DNA of 64,000 nt from positions 56,730,308 to 56,794,307 of the forward strand of contig OV884056.1 of the NCBI GenBank assembly GCA_930367215.1, read 5' to 3'. Positions 15,834 to 63,694 of this stretch are shown here, piece after piece. The DNA comes from Pollenia angustigena. Lineage: Eukaryota > Arthropoda > Insecta > Diptera > Polleniidae. Numbering within the stretch: the stretch's first letter is position 1; each line of letters opens with the position of its first letter. The position numbers and the translations under genes are program-made. The notes beneath the pieces were generated by a model. The model was not told the origin of the DNA, made no database searches, and saw only the letters and a list, made by a program, of their open reading frames with translations.

Positions 15834-16099
15834 TACGTAGATACATGTAAACTATAAAGTTTTCTCTTTTTCTCTCTCTGGTTCTATCTAAAAGTACAAA
15901 AACGATAAATTTACTGAAATTTTTCTAAATTTAAGAAGATTTTTCTTAATACAAACAAAATAAGTTGAAATCAAAGAAATTATTTTTAGATTTTGGATTG
16001 CATAAGAAAATAAACTTCCTTCCGTGTTCTCTTCCCTACGCCCTGCTGTTTTTTAGTTGCTTTGTTTGCTATTTTTTTTACTCTTTTAAGATATATTTT

Positions 16100-16248
16100 T
16101 TTTATTTTTTATTTTAATTCCCTAAGGTTATCCCAGCGAAGCTCTACGCTTGTCTGCAGGAAAGTAACCAGAGTCCTTGGCAGGAATCGAACCCACAACC
16201 CCGGCGCTGATAGACTAGCTCACTACCAGATAGCTACCTGGGCACTCA
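16100..16248 (-). mobile_element. tRNA-derived SINE
   Basis: Reading the minus strand: a tRNA-like head (AGTGCCCAGGTAGCTATCTG, GTGAGCTAGTC), a perfect Pol III B box GGTTCGATTCC, then a shared tail with TTTCCTGCAGACAAGCG and an A/T-rich end. The same unit in plus orientation is at 27171-27320, with differences scattered along its length, so this is a dispersed SINE and not a functional tRNA gene. Confidence 0.82.
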
Positions 16249-16372
16249 TACGGTTATAAATATCGTAGTAGTTATGCCCACCACTAGTTAAATGAAAGAT
16301 TAAATACTAATCAAAGAAGTGGTTGTGTTGAACCCTGGAAAAAATTAATTTTTTAAAGTTCGTTAAATAACA

Positions 16373-17232: not shown

Positions 17233-18703
17233 AGTGTTCGAAAATAAACACTAAATATCGCTCCTTAGTGTTCGGTTCAGTAGATTTGTGGAAAACATAA
17301 ACGCTAAAAGTGTTTGTGTTGAAAATCGTTAAAAAGAACGTTTCCCTGTTAGTCATCTTTCGGACACAAAAATAATCCGGTTTTTATCAAACTCAACAAA
17401 AGATGAGAACATTTAATTCATCATTGTGTTCGGTTAAGCTCATTAATGTTTGTCCCTTTTGGCTGGTTTTCTTAACCAAACATTTTTTACATAAACAAAA
17501 TACACATACGAAAAAAAAATAAAAAGCCAGCAAAATAATTTCACACAAACTATACATAAACACAATACACACACAAGCTAAGCTGTTCGTGGTGGGGTCG
17601 TTGCTAAAATTTTTTGTTGGTTCATTTCTTTATCAATGTAAACAAGTTAGAGTTTGATACCCTCCACCGACAGTTCGAATGTTTAAGGAGTTATATCTGT
17701 ATGATGTAATTATTATCTTAAACTGTGACGATTTGTTATTAATTATGGTTTTAGGCGACTAAACTGTTTTCCGGTAGGAGGGTTACAGCGTCATTTCTAG
17801 TCCTTTAAAACTGTAACGTACCAATTTCTGTTATGCTAGCATTATTAATTATGGCTTTACGTGTACTAAACTGTTTTCCGGGAGTAGGGTTTCTATGGGA
17901 CCTAGGGTAAATTATGTACCGATCTTCACCAAATTTCACAGTATCATTTATAGTCCTATAAAACTGTGACGAGCCAAAATTTGTTATGATTGCATTATTT
18001 TTTACGGTTTTACGCGTACTAAACTGTTTTCCGGGAGTTGTGTTTATATGGGGCTTAGGGTAAATTATGGACGGATCTTCACGAAATTTAACAGCGTGAT
18101 TTCCAGTCGAATAAAACAAATTTTTGCAAAATCTTATCTCATTCCGTGCCTTGTTCCAGCATTTATGTTATTTTTTGTAACAAAATTATCAATTTTTTTA
18201 GGTGGTGGTTCCACATTTTGATTCATAGCTCTGGTCCTACTGAACCGATTTTGCTGGATCCCAAACTGCTTAGGATAACTACAAGCAATTTGGCACCAAG
18301 TTTGTTCATTTCTTTTGAGTTGTTCGAAAGTGAGCGTGTTTTCAACAGACGGACAGACAGACAGACGGACATGGCTAAATCGACTTAGAATTACTCCAGG
18401 AACCAGGATATATATACTTTATAGGGTCTGAGATGAATAATAAAAAAGTTTCACACGGAATGACAAACTAAATATACCCTCTTCACTACTACTTGTGGTG
18501 GAGGGTATAAAAAGAAACATTATAGAACATTAAAATATAATGTTTGTTTATAGTATCACTACAATTGTTCGGCTCTTTTTTGAAAATATTTACGAACGGT
18601 ATTAAGGGTTGTGTTCGTCTACACAATCACTAAAAAAAACGAAATCGTTCTTGGGTGTGTGAGCCGAACGTTAAATAATGTACTGTTTATTTTCGAACAC
18701 TGA
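17233..18703. mobile_element. CAGTGTTCGAAA TIR element, interrupted copy
   Basis: Ends CAGTGTTCGAAAATAAACA and its complement TGTTTATTTTCGAACACTG (18685-18703) are perfect 19-bp inverted repeats. The left portion matches 8886-9175, and the right portion (GTGTGTGAGCCGAACGTTAAATAATG) matches the inverted copy at 22937-23829. A TATACCC element fills 17656-18511. No transposase seen; ends are hAT-like, but an 8-bp target duplication is not visible. Confidence 0.8.
17656..18511 (+). mobile_element. TATACCC composite repeat, full copy
   Basis: Opens GATACCCTCCACCGACAG and closes GTGGTGGAGGGTATA, so its ends are short inverted words. The left half is made of ~153-bp direct repeats (ACTAAACTGTTTTCCGG recurs near 17759, 17866 and 18019), the first with a ~46-bp deletion relative to the copy at 63695. 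The right half (CCACATTTTGATTCATAGCT, ...ACAGACGGACAGACAGACAG) recurs inverted at 62985-63355. No coding function: open frames here are translations of the repeats. Inserted in the element at 17233-18703. Confidence 0.75.
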
Positions 18704-21032: not shown

Positions 21033-21480
21033 CTTGTACCATAATTAAGAATAACAGAAAACATTATTTCCTTTAAAATCTAAAACGCGCCGCATTGAGC
21101 TTAAATATAGTTATTTACATACATATGTAAAGTAGACTGGTCCCTTTTTTCCGACTTTAAAAATTTCAAGGCAGATCCTCTTAAAATTTATTTTGAAAAA
21201 TTATCAAAAATTTCTTTTTGGGAATACAATATATTAATTTAAAAGATTTTGTTATTCGCGCTTAATTCCCAATTTTTATTCTTGATAAAAACACTGAAAA
21301 ATTTTAGAGTCGGAGTCGCGAGTGTTTTTTTTTGGTTACTTCGACTCCGACTTCCGTACATAAACCGCAACTCTGACTCCACATCTTTTTCAAAAATAAT
21401 AAAAATTCATTTAAAAGCAAGATATTTGGAAGCCTCAAAACAGAAGGGTTACCGCGAATTGCGATTCAAAAGAAAACATT
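21033..21480. other. Unassigned sequence
   Basis: Carries AGTCGGAGTCGCGAGTG and CTTCGACTCCGACTTCCG in inverted relation at 21308-21355, echoing 16554-16585; otherwise featureless. Confidence 0.35.
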
Positions 21481-27030: not shown

Positions 27031-27170
27031 CAGAATTGTGTTTCTTATTTAAAGAATGTAATTGCAATGAACAATTTAAGGATTTAAGTGAAATTTAATA
27101 TTTTTCGAGTTCCTTGCAGAATTCTAAATTAAATTTTAATTTTAAGAAAAAGATTTTATTATTATAAATG

Positions 27171-27320
27171 AGTGCCCCGGTAGGCTAGCTGGTAGTGAGC
27201 TAGTCCATCAGCGCCGGGGTTGCGGGTTCGATTCCCGCCAGAGACTCAAGTTTCTTTCCTGCAGACAAGCGAATAGCTTCGCGGGAATATCTTAGGAAAT
27301 AATAAAACAAAAACTAAAGA
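27171..27320 (+). mobile_element. tRNA-derived SINE, second copy
   Basis: AGTGCCCCGGTAGGCTAGCT head, B box GGTTCGATTCC at 27225-27235, then TTTCTTTCCTGCAGACAAGC and TAGCTTCGCGGGAATATC, ending in an A-rich tail. Matches 16100-16248 over its whole length in opposite orientation. Confidence 0.85.
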
Positions 27321-27762
27321 AACAGGATTTTAACTGAACTTTTAAAAAAATCATTTCGTTCATATTAGAAATATTAATCAATTTGTGATCAGCATGGCAA
27401 AATTATACATATGCATATACATAAGAGTTGTCAACCGATTATTAATAATTCGATTAATCGATCAAACAAAACCAAACTCTTATTCGAATAATTTCAAAAC
27501 GACGATTTTCGAATAACGAGTAAATCGATTAATTTATGTCGATTAATCGAACAATTTTTTTTATTAAAAAATAAATTAAATAAAAGCTTAGAATTTTATT
27601 TATTGTCATACGTTTTAAGTGATTTAAGGAAAGTTAAAAATATTGTTGCAATAGCCCTGGTTATAATTAATCTTAATGTTTAGTAAGCAAAAACCGTGTT
27701 GAGTACTCTTGTATTTCAAAAATGTATTTAATGTTCTTATTAAACAAATCTTAACAAACAAT

Positions 27763-32704: not shown

Positions 32705-33897
32705 TAAGGGGCCTAACTGTACGGTGCTTAATTAAGAGAGAAAATAAAATGCGCCTACTCACGAATCCATGTCTGAAACAATCACACCTGTCAATTTTAT
32801 CACATGACTGCCACAATCATACATTTACCTCTTGCTTAAGAACCGTCGCTATCCAACTTTAACTACAGCTGCAGCTTCTGTTGTATAGCAACAGCCAGCT
32901 GTCCTTATTCTGTTCTAGCAAAAGTAAGTTCTTTCTTCTCCGCGATTTTCTTTTTAACCACAGCCATCGCGTTATCCTATTAGTTAATTACTAGTTCAAA
33001 ACCAACGGAATATTGACTTCCGTAGTAACAGATAGAACTCTGTTCAGATGTGGTAGATCTTAACCACTGGATGACAAATAATGCGTTTGCCAAACGCCCC
33101 TGAGTGCGAGAGCAACCAACACACCCATTTAACGATTTGAGTGCATAATCAGAGAATATAAGCCACTCGCCGCCTTGTTTAGGAGCTGAAGCTATCTTAC
33201 TGCTGTTTTTCGAAATATACTAGCAGCATCACTATGTTATGGAAATTCAAAAAAGCATTTTCCGCAAGAAGCATAGTAAAGAAGGCATTAACTAATAGTC
33301 CGTGCCAACTCACCCCAGGGGGAAAACTCTGGGCAGATACGCTCTAGGAAATCCGCCAATTTCAAGTCTCCAAAAAGCTTCAGGTATTAGCTGTAGCTAT
33401 TTTCTCTTGAAAGTGCATAACAAAACCGTGTAAAACTAAATAAAGAATTCCTCAAAAAACAATCTTATCATCTCTTAAATAAACTTCTTCACTAATTGTT
33501 TAATGGTAGCAGGTTAATTAACTACGATCATTCAGCGCCCTATCAGTTTTAAGGTCTCAGACAAGCCTAAGGATCTGGTTGGACTTATAACCTCGGGAGA
33601 GCAAAAAAAGATGTTGATTATAACTCATATGCACACTTCTGGGCTATAAAAAAATGTGCACCCAGAGAAAAAAATGTTTAAATATGGTCACCTCCAACAA
33701 AACAATTTTTAAAGAAAATTAAAAAAAAGAGTAATTTCCAACCAGCATATGTTTGGGTCCTTACAACATCCAGCTTTCCCAAATAAGGATCAATAAGTAC
33801 AATTAATTTTAAAAGGTCTACTGATAACATACAGCGAGTGCCAACTTCAATAAAATTCTATTTCTAACTTTAATAAAAACCTTAGTATTATACTTAC
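32705..33897. other. Intron DNA; possible LTR-like segment
   Basis: About 32870-33540 is less AT-rich and includes GAATATAAGCCACTCGCCGC and a later AATAAAGAATTCC, an arrangement like an LTR promoter and polyA signal. No paired LTR, primer-binding site or coding remnant was found, so the identity is open. Confidence 0.25.
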
Positions 33898-34620
33898 TAC
33901 TCCAATATGCGTGACTATTACAATTTTCAATGTCACTACATATATCCTCGTTTGTCCTTCTCAGCGTATGTAAACCAAAATCACAGATCTTCAGTACAAA
34001 TCTCGAATCGACTACACAATTTGATGACTTCAAATTTCCATGTGATTTAATATCAGAAGTGTGTAAAAAATGCATTCCCCTTACAATATCATGCATTAAC
34101 GATAATTTAAACATCCAGTCCAGCTGGAATTGATCATTCTCTAAAATGTCCTGCAGCGAACCCTTTGGGCAGTATTCGGTCAATATAAAACTTTTGGCCG
34201 GATCTAAACACGCGCCATAAAACTTTACCAAATGCTCATGTTGCAGATCTTTCATACGTTTCAGTTCCAACATTAAGGAACGTGTTAGATTTATATTACG
34301 CTCATCGATAATTTTAACAGCAGCCTTGCAGCCACGAAATAGTCCAACGGGTATAAAAATTTGCCGGTCACCGCTAAGCGAGCCCATATCATCAGACATG
34401 AGTGTAATTTGGGAGTTGTGTTTGACCAAGGAATGTAAAGAACCACGAAAACATCGGCCAGCCGAATTGTGAAAAACAACATCATCGATGGTGACACGCC
34501 AAGCCATGGAATTAATTTCGGCTTCGGACTTATAATGGCGATAGCCGAAGAAGAAACAAATGCTCATAATGACTACCATTGCGCCGAGGACAATAGAAAG
34601 TATGGCATAGCCGGGTAGGG
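33898..34620 (-). CDS. Gyc76C: Receptor guanylyl cyclase, transmembrane and kinase-homology exon
   Basis: Acceptor TTTCTAG, donor GTAAGT; the 723 nt complete the Ser codon and leave one base open. Near the start a ~20-residue hydrophobic run (AILSIVLGAMVVIMSICFFF) followed by GYRHYKSEAE is the single transmembrane helix with a basic stop-transfer. Then comes the kinase-homology domain: AAVKIIDE with the Lys of the ATP site, ELKRMKDLQHEHLVKFYGA, FILTEYCPKGSLQDIL, and HGNLKSSNC in place of the catalytic HRDLKxxN, so the catalytic Asp is missing. DFGL is retained. This is the usual pseudokinase pattern of receptor guanylyl cyclases, where the domain gates the C-terminal cyclase rather than phosphorylating. 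Confidence 0.95.
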
Positions 34621-34632
34621 CTAGAAATATAA

Positions 34633-34648
34633 AGAGAGAGAGAGAGAA
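34633..34648 (+). repeat. GA microsatellite in the short cyclase intron
   Basis: About eight GA dinucleotides in the 97-bp intron; on the gene's strand they form a CT-rich tract upstream of the acceptor. Confidence 0.85.
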
Positions 34649-34717
34649 GAGTAAAATATAAAATTAGATATAAAAACTATGGACCTTTAAACAACTTTTC
34701 TTAAAATCAATACTCAC

Positions 34718-35144
34718 AGTTATCCGGACACAAGGAACCATCATATCCACACACTGGCCTATCTAGTGGTGGCTCAAGACGATTGCCAGCCCAATGTATT
34801 TCCTTGCCCGGCACATATTCCAATTTATTATGATGAAAATGCGCCACTATTTCAAACCTCCCTGTTGTAGGATTCATATCCAGCAAGGAGTATGCGGAAA
34901 TTCTATCACCGTTAGCATCTATGGTCACATTACCTGTAATGCCCATAAAACTGCGATTCCACATGCGCCTAACCATATCGGTGCCATTTATTGGCCTTGT
35001 CAACACCGAAGGATCCTCCCTTATGCTGTCGTTTAAGGCATTCGCATACAGTAGAACACCATCAAAGAACGATGTGACAAATGCTGAAATTGGCTCATCA
35101 TCTTGAAAGGTATAATTGTATTTGGCAGCAGCAATGGCCTTAAT
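34718..35144 (-). CDS. Gyc76C: Receptor guanylyl cyclase, membrane-proximal receptor exon
   Basis: The exon opens on a codon boundary after a CATCAG acceptor (IKAIAAAKYNYTF) and closes with one base of a Ser codon at a GTGAGT donor. Its 142 codons give the end of the receptor domain: TSFFDGVLLYANAL, RPINGTDMVRRMWNRSF, GNVTIDANGDR, YSLLDMNPTTGRFE and GSLCPDN just before the membrane. Asn-X-Ser/Thr sites (NGT, NRS, NVT) agree with an extracellular, secreted-pathway location. Only a 97-bp intron separates it from the next exon, the single short intron of this gene in the window. Confidence 0.93.
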
Positions 35145-35520
35145 CTGATGTCGTTAAGAAGCGTATAGGATGTTGACACAAAACCAGAAAATGTTAAAAG
35201 ATAACAAGAAAGAAAGAAAAAACAATTTTTTATTGAATTATAAAAGTAAACATAATAAATAAGTTTATTTAACAACTTTGGTTGCCACATAAAATTGGTG
35301 ATTTAAAGGTAAAGACTTTTTTTTTTAAATTCTTGCATGGTTACGAGTAAAATAAATACATATGAACGTTAAGGCAGAGTTGTAAAATAAGGTATTCTTG
35401 AAAATTTTTAAACAATAATGAACAAATAGGCAATTGAAAGTATAATAAATAATGGATGTGACAAGGAATTATGAAACTTGAAATTCTAATTAATTTTAAA
35501 ATATTCCACGACGCAACCTG
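35145..35520. other. Intron sequence, nothing recognised
   Basis: AT-rich; frames here extend from the exon and are intronic. Confidence 0.5.
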
Positions 35521-39684: not shown

Positions 39685-39931
39685 TATGTTTATATGAAAA
39701 TTCTTATTTTTAAGTGATGCCAGATGGAAAATTTATTCATTTAGTAGCACTGTATGTATATAAACTTTTTATTTTTTAAATGAAAAAGATCAAAAATTAT
39801 TGTGTATTTTTAAATTTATTTGCACATTTTTAATTTAATTTTACTTTTGTTGTCATATGAATGTGCCACATCGAAATAAAAACGTAAAACGGTTAAAAGT
39901 GTGGCAATGCTTAAAATCTTATTTGCAAATA

Positions 39932-40396
39932 CAGTACTTTTCGGTTGTGGACTATAAGCGAATTTGGACTATAACCGATTTTTTTTATAAGCCATTTTAT
40001 GGATAATAAGTGAAATCTATTATAATCCACATTTTGGACTATAAAACCATTATTTTTAAACAAAAGAAAAGTTTATTTAAAACATTACCAAATATTGATT
40101 TAATTGAAATAAATTGTCAAAAATAATAGTTGCGAGAAAGGTAAATAAAAACATATTGCCTGTTGATTAAAAAATATAAAAAACAGAGTGGACTATAAGC
40201 GACCATTTTTGTATAAAGAATTATAAATGCGTGCTAAGAAAATGTGGCTTTTAAACGAAAATGGACTACAAGCGAAATGGACCTTAGAACAAATAATTTG
40301 TATGAAATCCGAAAAAATGTGCAGGTGAATATGACAGTTTTGGCTTTAATCCGTTTTTGGCCTTTAAGAGGAATGGACTATAAGCGAAAAGTACTG
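39932..40396. mobile_element. Inner MITE with CAGTACTTTTCG ends and TA target duplication
   Basis: CAGTACTTTTCGGTTGTGG and complement CAGTACTTTTCGCTTATAG; TA directly outside both ends. At least five copies of GGACTATAAGCGAA or close variants are spread through its 465 bp. Ends and TA duplication suit the pogo/Tigger group. Confidence 0.8.
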
Positions 40397-40583
40397 TAGT
40401 GTCGTTAATCAGGAATTGTTTTCATGAGTTAGCTATTCGCAAATAAAAATTTAATTCACTGTTTATGCGGCAATATTCTCTACTTGCAATATATTTATTT
40501 GCGAATAAGTGGTGCGTATAAACGTAGTATCTGATTACTCAACGTATTATTTTGTAGGCGAAGTTTCACTGGGTCTTCCACTA

Positions 40584-40862
40584 CACTGTTGTTTATTGTT
40601 GATGTGTTTTGTTTTAACTTTGATATTATTAACAGTTTAATAGTTTTATTTGGTTTAATATCTTTAGTTTTTCTAAAATCTTTATGGATGAAGTTTCCTG
40701 ATGATCTGGCCTAAGCAACCAGTGAAATGCGCATAGGAATAGCTTATCCCATCAACAATGAATTTCAAGTGTTTTTGTCAAGAATAAAAACTGGGAATTA
40801 AGCATGAATAACAAAATCTTTTGAAATTAAAATTTTGTATTCCAAAAAATTGAAATTACTTT
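40584..40862 (+). repeat. Hammerhead-bearing repeat, copy 1
   Basis: Starts CACTGTTGTTTATTGTTGAT and runs through AATTAAAATTTTGTATTCC. It carries the ribozyme fold at 40686-40749. Copy 2 starts 442 bp downstream and repeats the sequence with an extra ~27 bp before the ribozyme. The right portion is also shared with the third copy near 56200-56400. Confidence 0.85.
40686..40749 (+). ncRNA. Predicted type I hammerhead ribozyme, copy 1
   Basis: Core CTGATGA (40698-40704) and GAAA (40724-40727) flank stem II CTGG/CCAG (40706-40709 with 40719-40722), capped by a 9-base loop. Stem III is minimal: the A and U after GAA pair with the A and U at 40733-40734 around GCGC. Stem I joins 40694-40697 to 40736-40739 (one G-U), then 40691-40693 to 40743-40745 and 40686-40689 to 40746-40749 across small bulges. 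Predicted cleavage follows A at 40735 (UA, an allowed UH). The weak point is a U-U mismatch at the base of stem II. The layout matches hammerheads reported in Penelope-like elements and retrozymes. Confidence 0.65.
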
Positions 40863-41025
40863 TTGATAAAACAGGCAAGTGCACGGCCTAAAAAACACTT
40901 AATTGACAACATCTTTTGTAAGTTGTTGTTGTTTTTATTTTGTTTTTCTTAACCTACTTACAACTACAATTAATGCTGAGAGAATTTCAACTAATTGTAG
41001 TGGGGAATGTAAGATGAGATAAACC

Positions 41026-41297
41026 CACTGTTGTTTATTGTTGATGTGTTTTGTTTAAACTTTGATATTATAACAAGTAGAACTGTTGCTATAATTCTTA
41101 TACGTTTAACAGTTTTATTTGGTTTAATATCTTTAGTTTTTCTAAAATCTTTATGGATGAAGTTTCCTGATGATCTGGCCTAAGCAACCAGTGAAATGCG
41201 CATAGGAATAGCTTATCCCATCAACAATGAATTTCAAGTGTTTTTGTCAAGAATAAAAACTGGGAATTAAGCACGAATAACAAAATCTTTTGAAAAT
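41026..41297 (+). repeat. Hammerhead-bearing repeat, copy 2
   Basis: Nearly identical to copy 1 from CACTGTTGTTTATTG through AACAAAATCTTTTGAAA, apart from an added AAGTAGAACTGTTGCTAT... segment at about 41073-41105. The ~160 bp between the copies contains no open frame. Confidence 0.85.
41155..41218 (+). ncRNA. Predicted type I hammerhead ribozyme, copy 2
   Basis: CTGATGA at 41167-41173, GAAA at 41193-41196, predicted cleavage after A at 41204. The sequence through the whole fold is identical to copy 1, 469 bp downstream on the same strand, so stems and caveats are the same. Both are antisense to the cyclase pre-mRNA. Confidence 0.65.
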
Positions 41298-42092
41298 GAA
41301 AATAAATAATTTTATAAAAAATAATCCTCCAGTTTAACAGAATAAGTATAAATTTAAAGAAATTATTAAATACCCATGAACTTTAACTAAGCTTTTGTTT
41401 GATTTTATGTTTAAAAAAAAAAAATCGAACAAGATTTGTTTAAAATTAATTTTAATTATTTTAAACAAAAAAGACGATCTTATTATTTTTTTTCCGGAAT
41501 TTGACGATTTTTACACAAATTTATCTGGCAGCACTGAACAAAACCAAGGAAAGGCAAAAAAAAATTTAAAATAACAAAATATAACAATTGTGTTTTGTTT
41601 ATTTTGATCATATAAATTATGCATTCATCATTTAAATTCCTTATATTTTTTATTTATTTTAAAAAAATAATATATAAACATATTTTAAATTTAAAATATC
41701 TACATTTTGTTTTTCTCGCATCAACTTCAAATGTGACTTATTTTGACAGTTCTTGTAAGAAACTTTTCGCAAAATATTGTTTCAGAAACACTTTATCCCA
41801 CATCCTTTCAATAATTGCTTGAAAATTTTTTAAATGACAGATAATTCTCGCAAAGAAAAGATACAGAAATACCTGTGTGAGAAAAACCAATTTTTTGTTT
41901 CATTTCACACTATTTTTGTTGCTATTCACACGTTTCATGCGAAAAGTTTTACGATGTGAGAAATACAGAAACGGGCTACAGAATAGTGAACAACAAAATT
42001 TTTACACATGAGATTCTTAAGAGTGAACACAACCTATCTCTATTATGTGAACAACTTGCAACCGTTGATTTTTTTTGTAACTATTTGTTGTA

Positions 42093-44894: not shown

Positions 44895-45330
44895 GAACAA
44901 GTAAAAGAGCTATGCCGAATCTTGTAAACCCCTTCACCATGGTGCGAAAAGGTCATTTAAATAACGTTCCTTAGATATGAGAAAATATATTTTATTTCAC
45001 GCCCACTTCATCAATCCTTTCATTTCATTTGTGGGATGTTTGCATCTAATGCGAGAAACTATCCTTTCGTACTCCAGATATACAGAAAAAATAAGTCAGA
45101 AAGTAAAACCGGTCGAGCCCGACCATATGATACCCTTCACCATGGTATATAAGGAGAAATTTTTGCAAGTGTGCCCTTTTTGGGACTCATGGGCAATGAC
45201 GAACCCGCCAGAACAAAATTATGCAAACCCTTCTGAAGAGATTGTGTGGTTACAATCGAAACGTCAGGGCAACCTGTCTGTGAAAACCTGGGTTCAGTCA
45301 AGAATGAAAAATTATCAATAAAGTTTGATT
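44895..45330 (-). repeat. Ends of TATACCC/GCCGAAT-type repeats
   Basis: GCTATGCCGAATCTTGTAAA followed by CCCCTTCACCATGG at 44910-44942, and GTCGAGCCCGACCATATGAT followed by ACCCTTCACCATGG at 45110-45144, are the inverted ends of the repeats seen at 61750-61795 and 28800. The 114-codon frame over this region is not a gene. Confidence 0.5.
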
Positions 45331-45383
45331 CATTTAATGATGTAAAACTCCTTTTTTAAAAGAAAATGATTTAATGAAAATAG

Positions 45384-45745
45384 AAAAAGACGTTTGGGAC
45401 AAACTTTTTAGAAAAAAGTTCTATAGAAAAAAATTTGTCTAAAACGATTTTTTGCTATAGAAAAACGTTTGTCTCAAACGATTTTTTTCAATAGAAAAAC
45501 GGTTGTCTCAAACGATTTTTTTCCATAGAAAAGAGCTTGTCCCAAATGATTTTTTCTACACAAACATTTTTGTCCCAAACGTTTTTTTTCAAAAGAAAAA
45601 AGTTTGTCCCAAACGTTTTATTTCAATAGAAAAAAGTTTGTCCCAAACGGGTTTTTATAGAAAACAGTTTGTCGTAAATGATTTTTTATATAAAGGTTTT
45701 TTATAGAAAAAGTTTGTCCCAAGGATTTTTCTTAGAAAAAATAAA
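45384..45745 (-). repeat. Minisatellite array A (inverted orientation)
   Basis: About ten units of ~35 bp of the form AAAAGTTTGTCCCAAACGAT plus a TTTTTTCNATAGA stretch. Read on the minus strand the unit is TTTGGGACAAAC + TTTTTTCTAT-GAAA, the same motif as arrays B to E on the plus strand. Confidence 0.85.
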
Positions 45746-55854: not shown

Positions 55855-56194
55855 CTGTAAATATAAATAAAGTTAAAAATAGAAATTAATTAACATATGC
55901 GTATTTATTTATTTATTTGTAGAATTTAAAATTAGAAAAAATGTTTAATTCAAACAAATATTCGTTTTGTAGTTAATTAAATAATTAAAATTTTGGAATT
56001 TTATTATAAATTAAATAAGCCACATGCCAATAAGTAATCGTTTGTTTTTTTTTGGAATACAATTTAAAATTTTTTGTTTTAATTTATTAATGAGCAATTA
56101 TTTTAAAGTAATACACCATTTCCAACAAAAAATAAAAATTTAATTGAGCCTTTTTAAGCTTTGATATCGTTGTAAATAAGGCTTTTTTGAGTGT

Positions 56195-56400
56195 TAGCAA
56201 TTCTCATTTCTTCCAAAATTTTTGGGAGAATGTTTCCTGATGATCTGGCCTAAGCAACCAGTGAAATGCGAATGGAAACTAGTTTATCCTCCAACAATAA
56301 ATTTCACTGTTTCTATCAAGAATAAAATAAATTGAGATTTAAGCACGACAAACAAAATTTTATTAAGTAAAAATTTTGTATTCCCAAAAATTACTTTGAT
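56195..56400 (+). repeat. Hammerhead-bearing repeat, diverged copy 3
   Basis: CTGATGATCTGGCCTAAGCA through CAACCAGTGAAATGCG is unchanged from copies 1 and 2, with divergent flanks (AAGAATAAAATAAATTGAG, AAGCACGACAAACAAAAT). CTGATGA is at 56237 and GAAA at 56263. The base after the conserved U is G (56274), which hammerheads do not tolerate at position 17, so this copy is probably inactive. Stem I is a perfect 5-bp GTTTC/GAAAC. Confidence 0.7.
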
Positions 56401-56439
56401 AATAAATTTAATATTTTCAGAAATGTAACAGAATTTTCT

Positions 56440-57580
56440 AGGAAACATTTTGAGACGAAACATTTTCTAGAAAGACCAATTATTGAAAAGGATATTTTGT
56501 ATAGAAATATTTTAAGAAGAAAATCTTTCTTAAAAACCCATTTTAGGACAAACTATTTTGAAATTTTTGCGAATTTAAAACATTTTTAGGCTTAAATAGT
56601 TTTTTTGTGAAATCATTTTGGCACAGAAAAATTTCTTAAGAAAACATTTTGGGACAGAATGCAGTACTATTTTGTAACAAAATATATTTTTAGAAAATGT
56701 TTTTGTATTTATTATTTAAGAAAATATTTTGGGACGAAAATATTTTTGAAAAAAGCATTTAAAGCAAAAATATTTGATTAAAAAAAGATTTTGGGACAAA
56801 AATATTTTCTAAAGAAAATTTTTTTTTAAATAGAAATAGTTTTTATAGAAAAACAGTGTGAGTTCAAAATATTTTCTAAAGAAAACTTTTTGTGACAAAA
56901 TAAATTTTTATAGAAAACATCTTGGGACGAAAATATTTCTTAAGCAAAACATTTACAAATAAAAATATTTTCTAAAGAAAACATTTTGAAATAAAAATAC
57001 TTTCTAGAGAAAAGTAGTTTGGTACAAAATAAAAAAAACATTTTGGGACAAAAATATTTTCTATAGGAAGCTTTAAGAAATAGCTAATTTTTTTTAGAGA
57101 AGACAGTTTGGAACATAACATTTTTCTAAAAAAAAAGTTTGAGTATTAAATATTTTAAAGGAAAACTTTTTAGGACAAAACTATTTTTTAAAGAAAAACA
57201 TTTTGGGACGGAAATATTTTTTGAAGTAAAACAATTTTTAAGGAAAACTATAAGGGACAAAATTATTTTGGAAAGAAAAAATTTTGTTACGAAAATATTT
57301 TTGAAGAAAAACTTTTTTAAGGAAAACTTTTTAGGACAAAATTATTTTTTAAAGAAAAAATTTTGGTACGAAAATATTTTCGAAGAAAAACATTTACAAA
57401 TAAAAATATTTTCCAAAGAAACATTTTGGAATGAAAATATGCATTAAAATTTTGGGACAGATAAAAATACATATTTACTTACTAGAGAAAACAAGTTCGG
57501 TACAAAATATTTTCTAAGAAAATTATATTTTAACGGAAACTTTTTGGGACAAAATATTTTCGTAGTCTTTTAAATTAAAA
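56440..57580 (+). repeat. Minisatellite array D
   Basis: Units of the form CATTTTGGGACAAAAATATTTTCTAAAGAAAA, ~35 bp, diverged. The 102-codon frame at 57139-57447 is a translation of these units (periodic Phe/Lys/Glu). Confidence 0.85.
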
Positions 57581-58204
57581 ATTGTTTTATCCATTTGGGA
57601 TTGATGTAGTCAGTGTAAATTTATTGAAAGAAATAGAAACTGGAATTTAAATTAAAATTTATTTTTAGTTTTTAACTTAATGCTTTTTAATTGTTTTTTT
57701 ATTCTTTTGTTTTGGCATTTTTTTTTTTTATAATTTTAAAGTTTATTGTTCGTTTTAATTAATTTAGAAAAGCGCGTAATTTATGCCAAAGCAAATGATT
57801 GTGTAAATGTTAACGTAATGTTTAACGAGGGTGGTTACTATAAGAAAGAATATTGTTGGATTCTGGAGAATTGAAATTCTCGACTGAAATTTATTACATT
57901 TTTTTCATAATATTTACCGATTAATATTTTAATCAATCTCTAAAAAATTTTTTTTATTAAATTTGTTAAATTAATTCGAAACTGCTTGTCAATATTAAAT
58001 AAGCTTTTTTATACATGCAATTTTTTTTTATATATTTGATGAAATAATTAGTATTGTGGTTATTTTGTTGAACTATTTATGGTTTTTAATCCAAATTTTT
58101 AATATTTTTAATTAGGCTTAAGTTCATGAAATTTAATTTTTATTAAATTATTTTTGTGAAGAAAGGAATTTTACAACATGAAAATTAACTAAAATTGTTA
58201 TTGA
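57581..58204. other. Intron DNA, nothing recognised
   Basis: Very AT-rich. Confidence 0.5.
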
Positions 58205-58335
58205 TAATCCTTCATTCTTGACGTGGCTTGGGCTCGAACCCTGGCCGGCAGGTTACCATGACATGTTTCGATCGCAACCACTCGATCTCCTCAGATGGAT
58301 TTGCCGTCTTACACTCGCAGCCATCGACGACTGCT
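58205..58335 (-). mobile_element. Possible second tRNA-derived SINE family
   Basis: Minus strand: GATCGAGTGGTTGCGATCG (A-box-like) and, ~35 bases on, a perfect Pol III B box in GGGTTCGAGCCC, then CACGTCAAGAATGAAGG. No cloverleaf with paired acceptor stem could be drawn, so it is not called a tRNA gene. Only one copy in the window. Confidence 0.4.
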
Positions 58336-59390
58336 GACGTCACTAGTCAAACATCAATCCTTAAACCAAATTGTATTTTAACATTTGGTAGATCGAAATA
58401 TGCTTTCCTGAATGATTATCCATTTAATTGATTTTACATGTTTTTTCCTTTACTTCTGAAATATTTACATCTTTTTTTTTAAATATTCATCTAAGTTCAA
58501 AACCCTTAATTCAAAATTATTAAACAAAATTCTGAAATTAATTTTAAATACAAATTTCTCTTTTAATGACACAAATTTTTATATACTTGATTAAATATTT
58601 TGATCAAATTCTACATAAATCTTCATCAATCGTAAAATACTTAGGCGATATTAAAATTTTTAAAAATGTCGTTTTAAATTTATTTCCTTTTTTCAAAATC
58701 CTTCTCCCACACGTGGCACTTGATATTCTGATTAACACAACGTAAAAATTGTTTTAATATTAAAACAAACAATCAGAAGTGACATTTTCATATTTAAAAA
58801 AAAAATTGATTTTATAAATCATATTTTTCTTGTTTTAAAACAATTTTCTCGTGCATCTTTATTAATTTTGTTGAAGACGAAAGTATTTATTTGCATTTTC
58901 CACCTGTTTAGGAATGAATGTAGTGTGAATTTTTATTTCATTCCTCATTCATTTTTGGCAACATCTTTCATTTGCAAAATTATTAATGCGATTCTTGGCC
59001 GGAATACAGCGAAAGCCCAACCAACCATCGCAGTGCACAATCCACCGCCACCACTGACCACAGACAAATACATACGTTTAAAATAATTGTGATGGGAAAT
59101 TCTTACTTAAAGTCATTTTTCATTTCAATAATTTTCGTTTTGCTAGATTAATTTGTGGGGTTTTGCGGGCGGCTGTTTAATGGATGTGCAAAATATAGAG
59201 ACATTTTTTACATTATTAAACATAGCGAAAAGAAAAAAAAAAAAAACAAATTACAATTCTTTAGCGTCAATGAATGAATTAAGAACGTGATGTAAAAGGA
59301 ATTTTAAGCAGCATGAGAACACCGAGGGTGGGTGGGAAATTTAAAACAATTTTGGTTGGAGAATTATGCTAATTTTGACTATTATTAAAG
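58336..59390. other. Intron DNA, nothing recognised
   Basis: The frame at 58868-59086 and the CCACCGCCACCACTGACCAC stretch near 59040 have no supporting motif. Confidence 0.4.
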
Positions 59391-62983: not shown

Positions 62984-63356
62984 CCCTCCACCACAATTAG
63001 TTGTGAAGAGGGTATATTAAGTTTGTCATTCCGTGTGAAACTTTTTTTTATTCATCTCAGACCACATAAAGTATATATATTCTGGGTCCTTGAGTAATTC
63101 TAAGTCGATTTAGCCATTTCCGTCTGTCTGTCCGCCTGTTGAAAACACGCTCACTTTCGAAAAACTCAAAAGAAATGAACAAACTTGGTGCCAAATTGCT
63201 TGTAGTTATCCTAAGCAGTTTGGGATTGAAATCCAGCAAATTCGGTTCAGTAGGACCAGAGCTATGAATCAAAATGTGGAACCACCACCTAAACAAATTT
63301 ATAATTTTGTTACAAAATAACATAAATGCTGGAACAAGGCACGGAATGAGATAAGA
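62984..63356 (-). mobile_element. TATACCC family-2 right part, inverted
   Basis: TATACCCTCCACCACAATTAG then GTTTGTCATTCCGTGTGAAA, through CCATTTCCGTCTGTCTGTCC and ACAAGGCACGGAATGAGATA: the reverse complement of 18120-18511. The frame 63323-63057 is its translation. Confidence 0.75.
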
Positions 63357-63694
63357 TTTTGCAAAAAAATACAGGTAATATAACTTTCCTCTTTTAATGT
63401 TTTAATTTAAATTTGTTTTAATTTTGAACTTATAATTTTTTATTGCTTTATTTTTGTACTTTTTATCTTGTACGTTTTAATTTTGTACTTTTTAATTTTT
63501 ATTTTGTACTTTTTAATTTTGTTTTAATTTTGTACTTTTAATTTTAATAAAATTTTTTTTATTAATTTTAATTTAATTTTATTTATTAAATTGTTGTGGC
63601 TTTTTTCTATTAACATTAGTACTCTTGCTCTATAATTATAAGATATATTCTTGTTGAGCAGGATTTCAATAAATAAATAAAAGAATCTTTGATA
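63357..63694. other. Low-complexity AT-rich spacer
   Basis: Repeated TTTTAATTTTGTACTTT words (period ~18-30) between two oppositely oriented halves of the TATACCC family-2 repeat. Confidence 0.6.

Follow-up and report, generated by a model that had tools for sequence, protein, structure and literature searches.

A family of retrozyme-like repeats with predicted hammerheads and Penelope-like insertion ends in the genome of the fly Pollenia angustigena

The pair of hammerhead-like repeats in the window, the 64,000-nt stretch of Pollenia angustigena DNA analysed here, is one copy of a mobile, non-coding repeat of 469 letters that is present in thousands of copies in this genome. This repeat, family A, probably represents a non-coding, non-autonomous metazoan non-LTR retrozyme with one type I hammerhead per 469-nt unit that is mobilised by Penelope-like elements. 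Its copies occur in arrays, share a conserved core, have clustered 3'-ends and form head-to-head insertions with common flank words, and Penelope-like elements are present in the same genome. A copies end as Penelope retrotransposons do and therefore hint at the enzyme that copies animal ribozyme repeats; these ends suggest an enzyme of the Penelope type. The mobilising enzyme of animal retrozymes is presented as a hypothesis in PMC7229834, with Penelope-like elements named there as strong candidates on other grounds. If our reading is true, this genome with its two families and thousands of copies lets the suspected Penelope link be read from insertion structure, which at such copy numbers would provide a direct test of the mobiliser of animal retrozymes.

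The window insertion and family A across the genome

Two near-identical repeats on the same strand (40584-40833 and 41026-41303) carry ribozyme cores of identical sequence that are 469 bp apart, as the initial annotation of this DNA had described. The approximately 160 bp between the repeats had been taken for non-coding sequence separating the copies, but belong to the repeating unit and do not form a spacer. The following family A features were located in the window:

40584..41303, + strand: family A insertion of 1.53 units (unit 291-469, then 1-469, then 1-98)
40736..41204, + strand: complete 469-nt unit between two presumed cleavage sites
40686..40749, + strand: hammerhead 1 (predicted), cleavage expected after 40735
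41155..41218, + strand: hammerhead 2 (predicted), identical to hammerhead 1 in sequence, expected cleavage after 41204
40727..40734, + strand: helix III palindrome ATGCGCAT, copy 1
41196..41203, + strand: helix III palindrome ATGCGCAT, copy 2
21197..21315, - strand: 5'-truncated A-family copy, ribozyme core absent
56181..56409, + strand: older copy of the sister subfamily A-prime, core retained, H17 = G, one helix III change

The first copy in the insertion lacks a stretch near unit position 340-358, and the 3'-end of the insertion lies at unit position 98. A flank duplication was looked for at 40584..41303 and none was found. Unlike Penelope-like elements, this copy contains neither a reverse transcriptase nor a GIY-YIG frame, as had been noticed from the sequence, since no stop-to-stop frame of at least 90 aa is present in 40584-41303. 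Judged by its sequence the A-prime copy is probably inactive, owing to G at H17 and a single change in helix III.

The genome searched was the window's own (1.37 Gb). The search for further tandem copies proposed by the initial annotation yielded both arrays and dispersed copies. The full 718-bp stretch including the part between the repeats recurs many times, with at least 83 matches (40 of 1,866 candidates scored), among which are arrays with a period of 469-470 bp. The overall period of the arrays, 467-473 bp, fits the 469-nt unit that had been postulated between the presumed cleavage sites. A total of 4,881 exact 38-nt cores and 13,724 exact 30-nt tail segments were counted genome-wide, each with a backward control of 0. 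The suggestion of a retrozyme-like family was thus supported, whereas a small one, as had been considered, is at odds with these counts. The gap between core and tail counts is explained, at least partly, by a subfamily with ATGCAT in helix III, a form present in all five sampled array units. The first 100 listed tail sites all lie on one chromosome. They include 61 same-strand neighbours at distances below 1.3 kb, of which 56 are spaced 467-473 bp, as well as 7 head-to-head but no tail-to-tail pairs. Correspondingly, the first 100 listed core sites comprised 92 clusters, 85 of these with one exact core, and included 4 head-to-head and no tail-to-tail pairs. Eight units of one array showed a mean difference of 1.9%. 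A plain tandem duplication as origin of the window pair was ruled out, since the repeat does not extend into the flanks and its unit occurs genome-wide. Exact-pattern scans of viral contigs and of prokaryote contigs gave 0 matches each.

The predicted hammerhead of family A

Each core of the pair consists, in this order, of CTGATGA (at 40698 and 41167), stem II, GAAA, the 8-nt palindrome ATGCGCAT, A, and the stem I strand. Stem II comprises 4 bp (CTGG/CCAG) above a T-T (U-U) mismatch (40705/40723). Stem I is formed by GGATGA and GTTTC with GGAAT and TTATCC; with the hammerhead fold imposed, these strands give 5 + 6 bp that flank a bulge. All parts that had been recognised from the sequence, including the self-complementary stem III and the 11-bp bulged stem I, are present, together with U-U below stem II. 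The core of a type I hammerhead (CUGANGA ... GAAA ... UH, open stem I) is found in A and is kept in the consensuses of A and A-prime. At 10.1-11.1 the standard pair is replaced by U-U in A, whereas this position is paired in the two family B copies of the window, B1 and B2. A U10.1-U11.1 mismatch is described in PMC3088659 as natural in some hammerheads and as the most active mispair. A predicted dimer-type hammerhead with U-U that is exact in 4,881 copies suits the question of how weak hammerheads work in cells.

A type I hammerhead descriptor was applied in a strict version and in a version with relaxed stem II; it is post hoc, because it was chosen after the motif had been seen. It resulted in four matches in the window, namely the A pair (relaxed stem II) and the sites 45233 (+) and 58294 (-) (strict), compared with 2 matches per version in 300 random first-order Markov windows (0.0067 per window). 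The Rfam hammerhead search recommended in the initial annotation brought no support for A: an Rfam scan of the window gave nothing at the gathering score, and for the A stretch no hammerhead family appeared at E<=10 but merely low-scoring matches to unrelated families.

In the folding computations, the stability of the monomer fold was ordinary (z -0.17). Free folding was better than the enforced hammerhead in all cases computed (A1, A3, B1, and B2). Values were -14.3 vs -7.8 for the A1 monomer, -33.8 (with a slipped stem I) vs -26.6 for the linked A1 dimer, -30.3 vs -13.9 for the A3 dimer, -33.2 vs -13.7 for B1, and -40.8 vs -33.2 for B2. For the 1.53-unit window transcript the free-energy model showed no paired-hammerhead form, and the helix III copies paired at a mean probability of 0.065.

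Sequence comparison of copies and subfamilies gave further information on the core. The window copies A1 and A3 share a 39-nt identical run over the core (permutation P 0.00025). A search with the diverged window copy at 56181-56409 retrieved the A-prime subfamily. Its consensus, built from 28 copies, matches that of A without any difference in a run of 44 nt that spans core, stem II, and helix III. Two differences in inner stem I between both consensuses still pair with GUUUC. In 33 aligned sequences, 92.1% of the stem I cells were paired in the hammerhead register vs 67.0% in the slipped register, which is the one that free folding prefers for A1. There were no two-sided stem pair changes among these 33 sequences and the shuffle control was never exceeded; hence, single copies seem to have decayed neutrally, and it is the subfamily comparison that provides the support. 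Stem I pairing of the single copies A1, A2, A3, and B1 was no better than that of shuffles at 5%, and for B2 a P of 0.042 was obtained. Helix III is self-complementary in four subfamily-level forms, ATGCGCAT, ATGCAT, ACATGT (B2), and ACGT (B1), although single copies can lose this property, e.g. the copy at 56237. In PMC3088659, palindromic stem III sequences of Aedes repeats are taken to indicate possible dimers, and our genome data fit the dimer-capable hammerhead with short stem III that had been proposed from the window.

Family B

The two strict descriptor matches belong to a second family, B, with a tandem unit of 561 nt and a GC content of 0.326:

58043..58458, - strand: family B copy B2, 0.74 of the 561-nt unit (unit 362-561, 1-217)
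58294 (start), - strand: strict type I hammerhead of B2 (predicted), cleavage expected after 58260
45223..45381, + strand: older family B copy B1, two pieces at ~80%, hammerhead core start 45233

The predicted type I hammerhead of family B is more canonical than that of A. With the Rfam model RF00163 (Hammerhead_1), B2 reached 15.3 bits vs a cut-off of 34, and B1 had no hammerhead match in Rfam. Exact B cores were found 14,796 times genome-wide (control 0). A spacing of 540-581 bp separated 36 same-strand neighbours among the first 100 listed sites, which also held 11 head-to-head pairs and 1 tail-to-tail pair. Five head-to-head loci were read, and all five used two sites, one end being located at unit 213-222 and the other at ~130-194; the ends near 130 (L095, no BLAST match) and possibly ~174 (L099, 194 according to BLAST) were read by eye. 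One of these five insertions, 478 bp long, lies within the 3' part of a Penelope-like element and is accompanied by an 11-bp duplication, TGTTTTTTATA; another copy of this Penelope-like element shows the empty site.

Two other readings were tried and rejected. A coding function of the B cores (NPSEEIVWLQSK by eye) was discarded, as the B1 frame has no Pfam match and the B unit is a tandem repeat. In the case of a tRNA gene, ARAGORN found none in the window, and a permissive run on short pieces returned poor candidates alone. B2 includes an exact match to the Pol III B-box GGTTCRANNCC, of which the window contains 3 vs 0.32 expected. The stem II loop of family B resembles, by eye, a Pol III A box, and GGTTCGAGCCC further downstream a B box.

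Local alignment of A and B tails gave P values above 0.05 in 7 of 8 comparisons and 0.031 in one. A box, TCAAGAATRAA, is common to A and B (column-shuffle P 0.0017). Each of the six A and B copies in the window has it, at 40777, 41246, 45297, and 56315 (+) as well as at 21286 and 58222 (-). These six sites are the sole window matches to GTCAAGAATRAA with at most 1 mismatch, 2.41 being expected, and 5 of 100 shuffles had at least 6. A 34-bp repeat array (45385-45690) is situated immediately downstream of B1.

Insertion ends of family A

From 47 A loci, 39 were mapped and 8 overlapping loci were omitted. This sample favours long copies, because the loci are the top-scoring matches, and two of its members (L022 and L023) look like one duplicated locus. 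The 56 outward 3'-ends fell into two clusters about 40 nt apart, 25 at unit 82-101 and 25 at unit 124-136, and 6 were found elsewhere (unit 38, 38, 142, 151, 344, and 469). The 22 5'-ends were scattered over unit 5-412. At 17 of the 39 loci copies were arranged head to head with both 3'-ends outward, and at none were both outer ends 5'-ends. One proximal and one distal end were combined in 12 of these 17 loci. If only those 14 are considered in which both ends lie in the defined zones (proximal, unit 82-101; distal, unit 124-151), 12 use one of each (binomial P 0.0065). Clustered 3'-ends, 5'-truncation, and flank duplications fit any target-primed mechanism, including copying of the units by a LINE reverse transcriptase with head-to-head copies as ordinary twin-priming inversions. 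We consider this improbable, since the ends prefer two different sites (12 of 14 loci in A, 5 of 5 head-to-head loci in B), which matches the one-sided tail of Penelope.

A word of at least 10 nt common to both flanks was detected at 15 of the 39 loci, compared to 1.2% of mismatched controls. These words are AT-rich and may include up to 6 nt of the element per side. Of the 15 loci, 12 are head-to-head, whereas only 3 of the 22 loci without this arrangement have such a word. One-tailed head-to-head insertions of the Penelope kind thus characterise a part of family A to which the window copy does not belong. A satellite-like repeat spread by recombination, its hammerhead likeness being due to chance, would agree with the existence of tandem arrays and with the missing Rfam match of A. 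Such an origin is hardly credible in view of the dispersed A copies with clustered 3'-ends and shared flank words, the empty site of a B insertion, and hammerhead-like cores in both families, for which the post hoc descriptor gives an expectation of 0.0067 per window.

Almost all A cores in the 39 loci (111 of 112) run on through the cleavage site. The cleaved linear unit therefore is not the usual template, which is a circle or an uncut multimer. Arrays of several laps with the same 3'-ends suit a circle without proving one.

Penelope-like elements

A Penelope relative, for which the initial annotation had proposed a genome search, exists in this genome. At least 19 GIY-YIG matches were found (150 of 493 candidates scored), and 18 of the 19 loci (L049-L066) form three sequence groups; two of the loci, L052 and L053, are 99.9% identical. 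A minimal hammerhead (CTGAAGA, stem II, GAAACGT) was found in 15 of the 18 loci; in the one representative measured per group, the 3'-end follows it at a distance of 74-79 nt. Two of the groups have GTCAA/TTGAC as stem II of this hammerhead and the third has GTGAA/TTCAC, so that pairing is preserved. At L061 a reverse transcriptase-like frame was found just upstream of the GIY-YIG frame (RVT_1, E 2.2e-5, 24.7 bits, below the curated 29.6); the GIY-YIG match of this element resulted from the genome search and was absent from a later domain check of the same element. At L059 the GIY-YIG domain is located in a 341-aa frame, and no reverse transcriptase domain was found there. Accordingly, one of the two Penelope-like elements tested has a reverse transcriptase domain, which neither strengthens nor weakens the Penelope reading much.

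Sequence of A or B occurs in three of the 19 GIY-YIG loci. In L050 it represents a separate insertion, with an empty site elsewhere. In L058 (2636-2880) an A-like copy (84%) starts ~10 nt past the end of an element of the third group, and in L059 an A unit is placed upstream of the Penelope-like element. The 3' tails of A and B shared no significant similarity with three Penelope-like tails in any of nine comparisons (P 0.07 to 0.96).

In PMC3846280, Penelope insertions are described as often head-to-head (pLTRs). The examples given there have target site duplications of 8-10 bp, and one inverted copy may bear an additional 31-bp tail at its 3'-end. Some insertions have no duplication or no inverted copy, and partial tandems are reported as well. 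Family A resembles these elements in head-to-head arrangement, short duplications, an extra 3' tail on one copy, 5'-truncation, and partial tandems. The tails measure ~40 nt in A, ~23-87 nt in B, and 31 bp in Penelope as given in PMC3846280.

These shared insertion features would also be expected if A and B were pLTR-only derivatives of Penelope-like elements, in which linear read-through multimers are reverse transcribed without a circle and the hammerhead merely trims transcripts. The partial tandems of Penelope itself (PMC3846280) and the minimal hammerhead near the 3'-end in 15 of 18 Penelope-like loci are in line with this, and a linear template equally explains the continuation of 111 of 112 A cores past the cleavage site. 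Nevertheless, such a derivation seems unlikely, because A or B sequence was found in just 3 of 19 GIY-YIG loci, the L050 case being a separate insertion, and no significant tail sequence is common to A or B and the three Penelope-like groups.

Proposed mechanism and comparison with known systems

For family A as a Penelope-mobilised retrozyme we infer self-cleavage, RNA circles, and the identity of the enzyme. Multimeric transcripts would self-cleave in every unit, most likely with two hammerheads paired via the self-complementary helix III, and the unit RNAs would be closed into circles. These circles may then serve as templates for a Penelope-like reverse transcriptase/GIY-YIG endonuclease that inserts the copies at staggered breaks in the target. 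Copying would begin at either of two fixed positions, ~93 or ~133 nt beyond the cleavage site, and often run for more than one lap. Where both broken DNA ends are used, the two copies would meet in head-to-head orientation, and a single one would bear a 40-nt 'tail'. For animal retrozymes in general we see an even chance that they are satellites of Penelope-like elements, whose enzyme would copy dimeric-hammerhead circles, with two fixed starts and one-tailed head-to-head multimers as the outcome.

With a GC content of 0.292 and dispersed tandem units, from dimers to multimers, that carry one type I hammerhead each, A agrees with the metazoan non-LTR retrozymes (Cervera and de la Pena 2020, PMC7229834). 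These are likewise tandem repeats of low GC content that range from dimers to multimers and contain a single type I hammerhead in each unit; no LTR features are described for them in the sections considered. Duplications of more than 4 bp, where present, are another likeness to A and B. The unit lengths of 469 (A) and 561 nt (B) compare with 150-450 bp given for retrozymes in PMC7229834, A being slightly outside this range. Clustered 3'-ends at two sites and head-to-head insertions are features of A and B, whereas none are described for retrozymes in the sections of PMC7229834 considered. RNA circles have been shown for the retrozymes of PMC7229834; for A and B they are predicted.

Similarities by description rather than by sequence exist to the dimer-type hammerheads of Aedes aegypti (Perreault 2011, PMC3088659), which share with A self-complementarity of stem III and loop III and a location in interspersed dipteran repeats; for the Aedes example tested in PMC3088659 no cleavage was detected. 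The SINE-like SMalpha retroposons of Schistosoma (PMC8490949, PMC6155905) are, again by description, like A in being short and carrying a type I hammerhead. Retrozyme-like repeats are stated to occur in insects (PMC7229834), and type III hammerheads are reported in dipterans (PMC7936874). Among the titles and abstract openings listed in literature searches, none dealt with a fly retrozyme family or with retrozyme insertion ends of the Penelope type; such papers may nonetheless exist.

Other features of the window

Several GGACTATAAGCG-type repeats (39930-40398) are located directly upstream of the A insertion, and next to the A-prime copy are degenerate repeats (56439-57560) spaced about 16 and 32 bp apart. 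A gene resembling receptor guanylyl cyclases, with ANF_receptor and kinase-like domains, has exons at 33818-35153 (-); the intron location given for the A pair in the initial annotation is a tentative assignment. Similar open frames (NKIINxFRWWFHILIHSSGPTEP...) at 18092-18388 (+) and 63057-63401 (-) probably represent a dispersed repeat. Two 85%-identical copies with an exact GGTTCGATTCC B box, at 27168-27322 (+) and 16097-16249 (-), constitute a probable tRNA-derived SINE.
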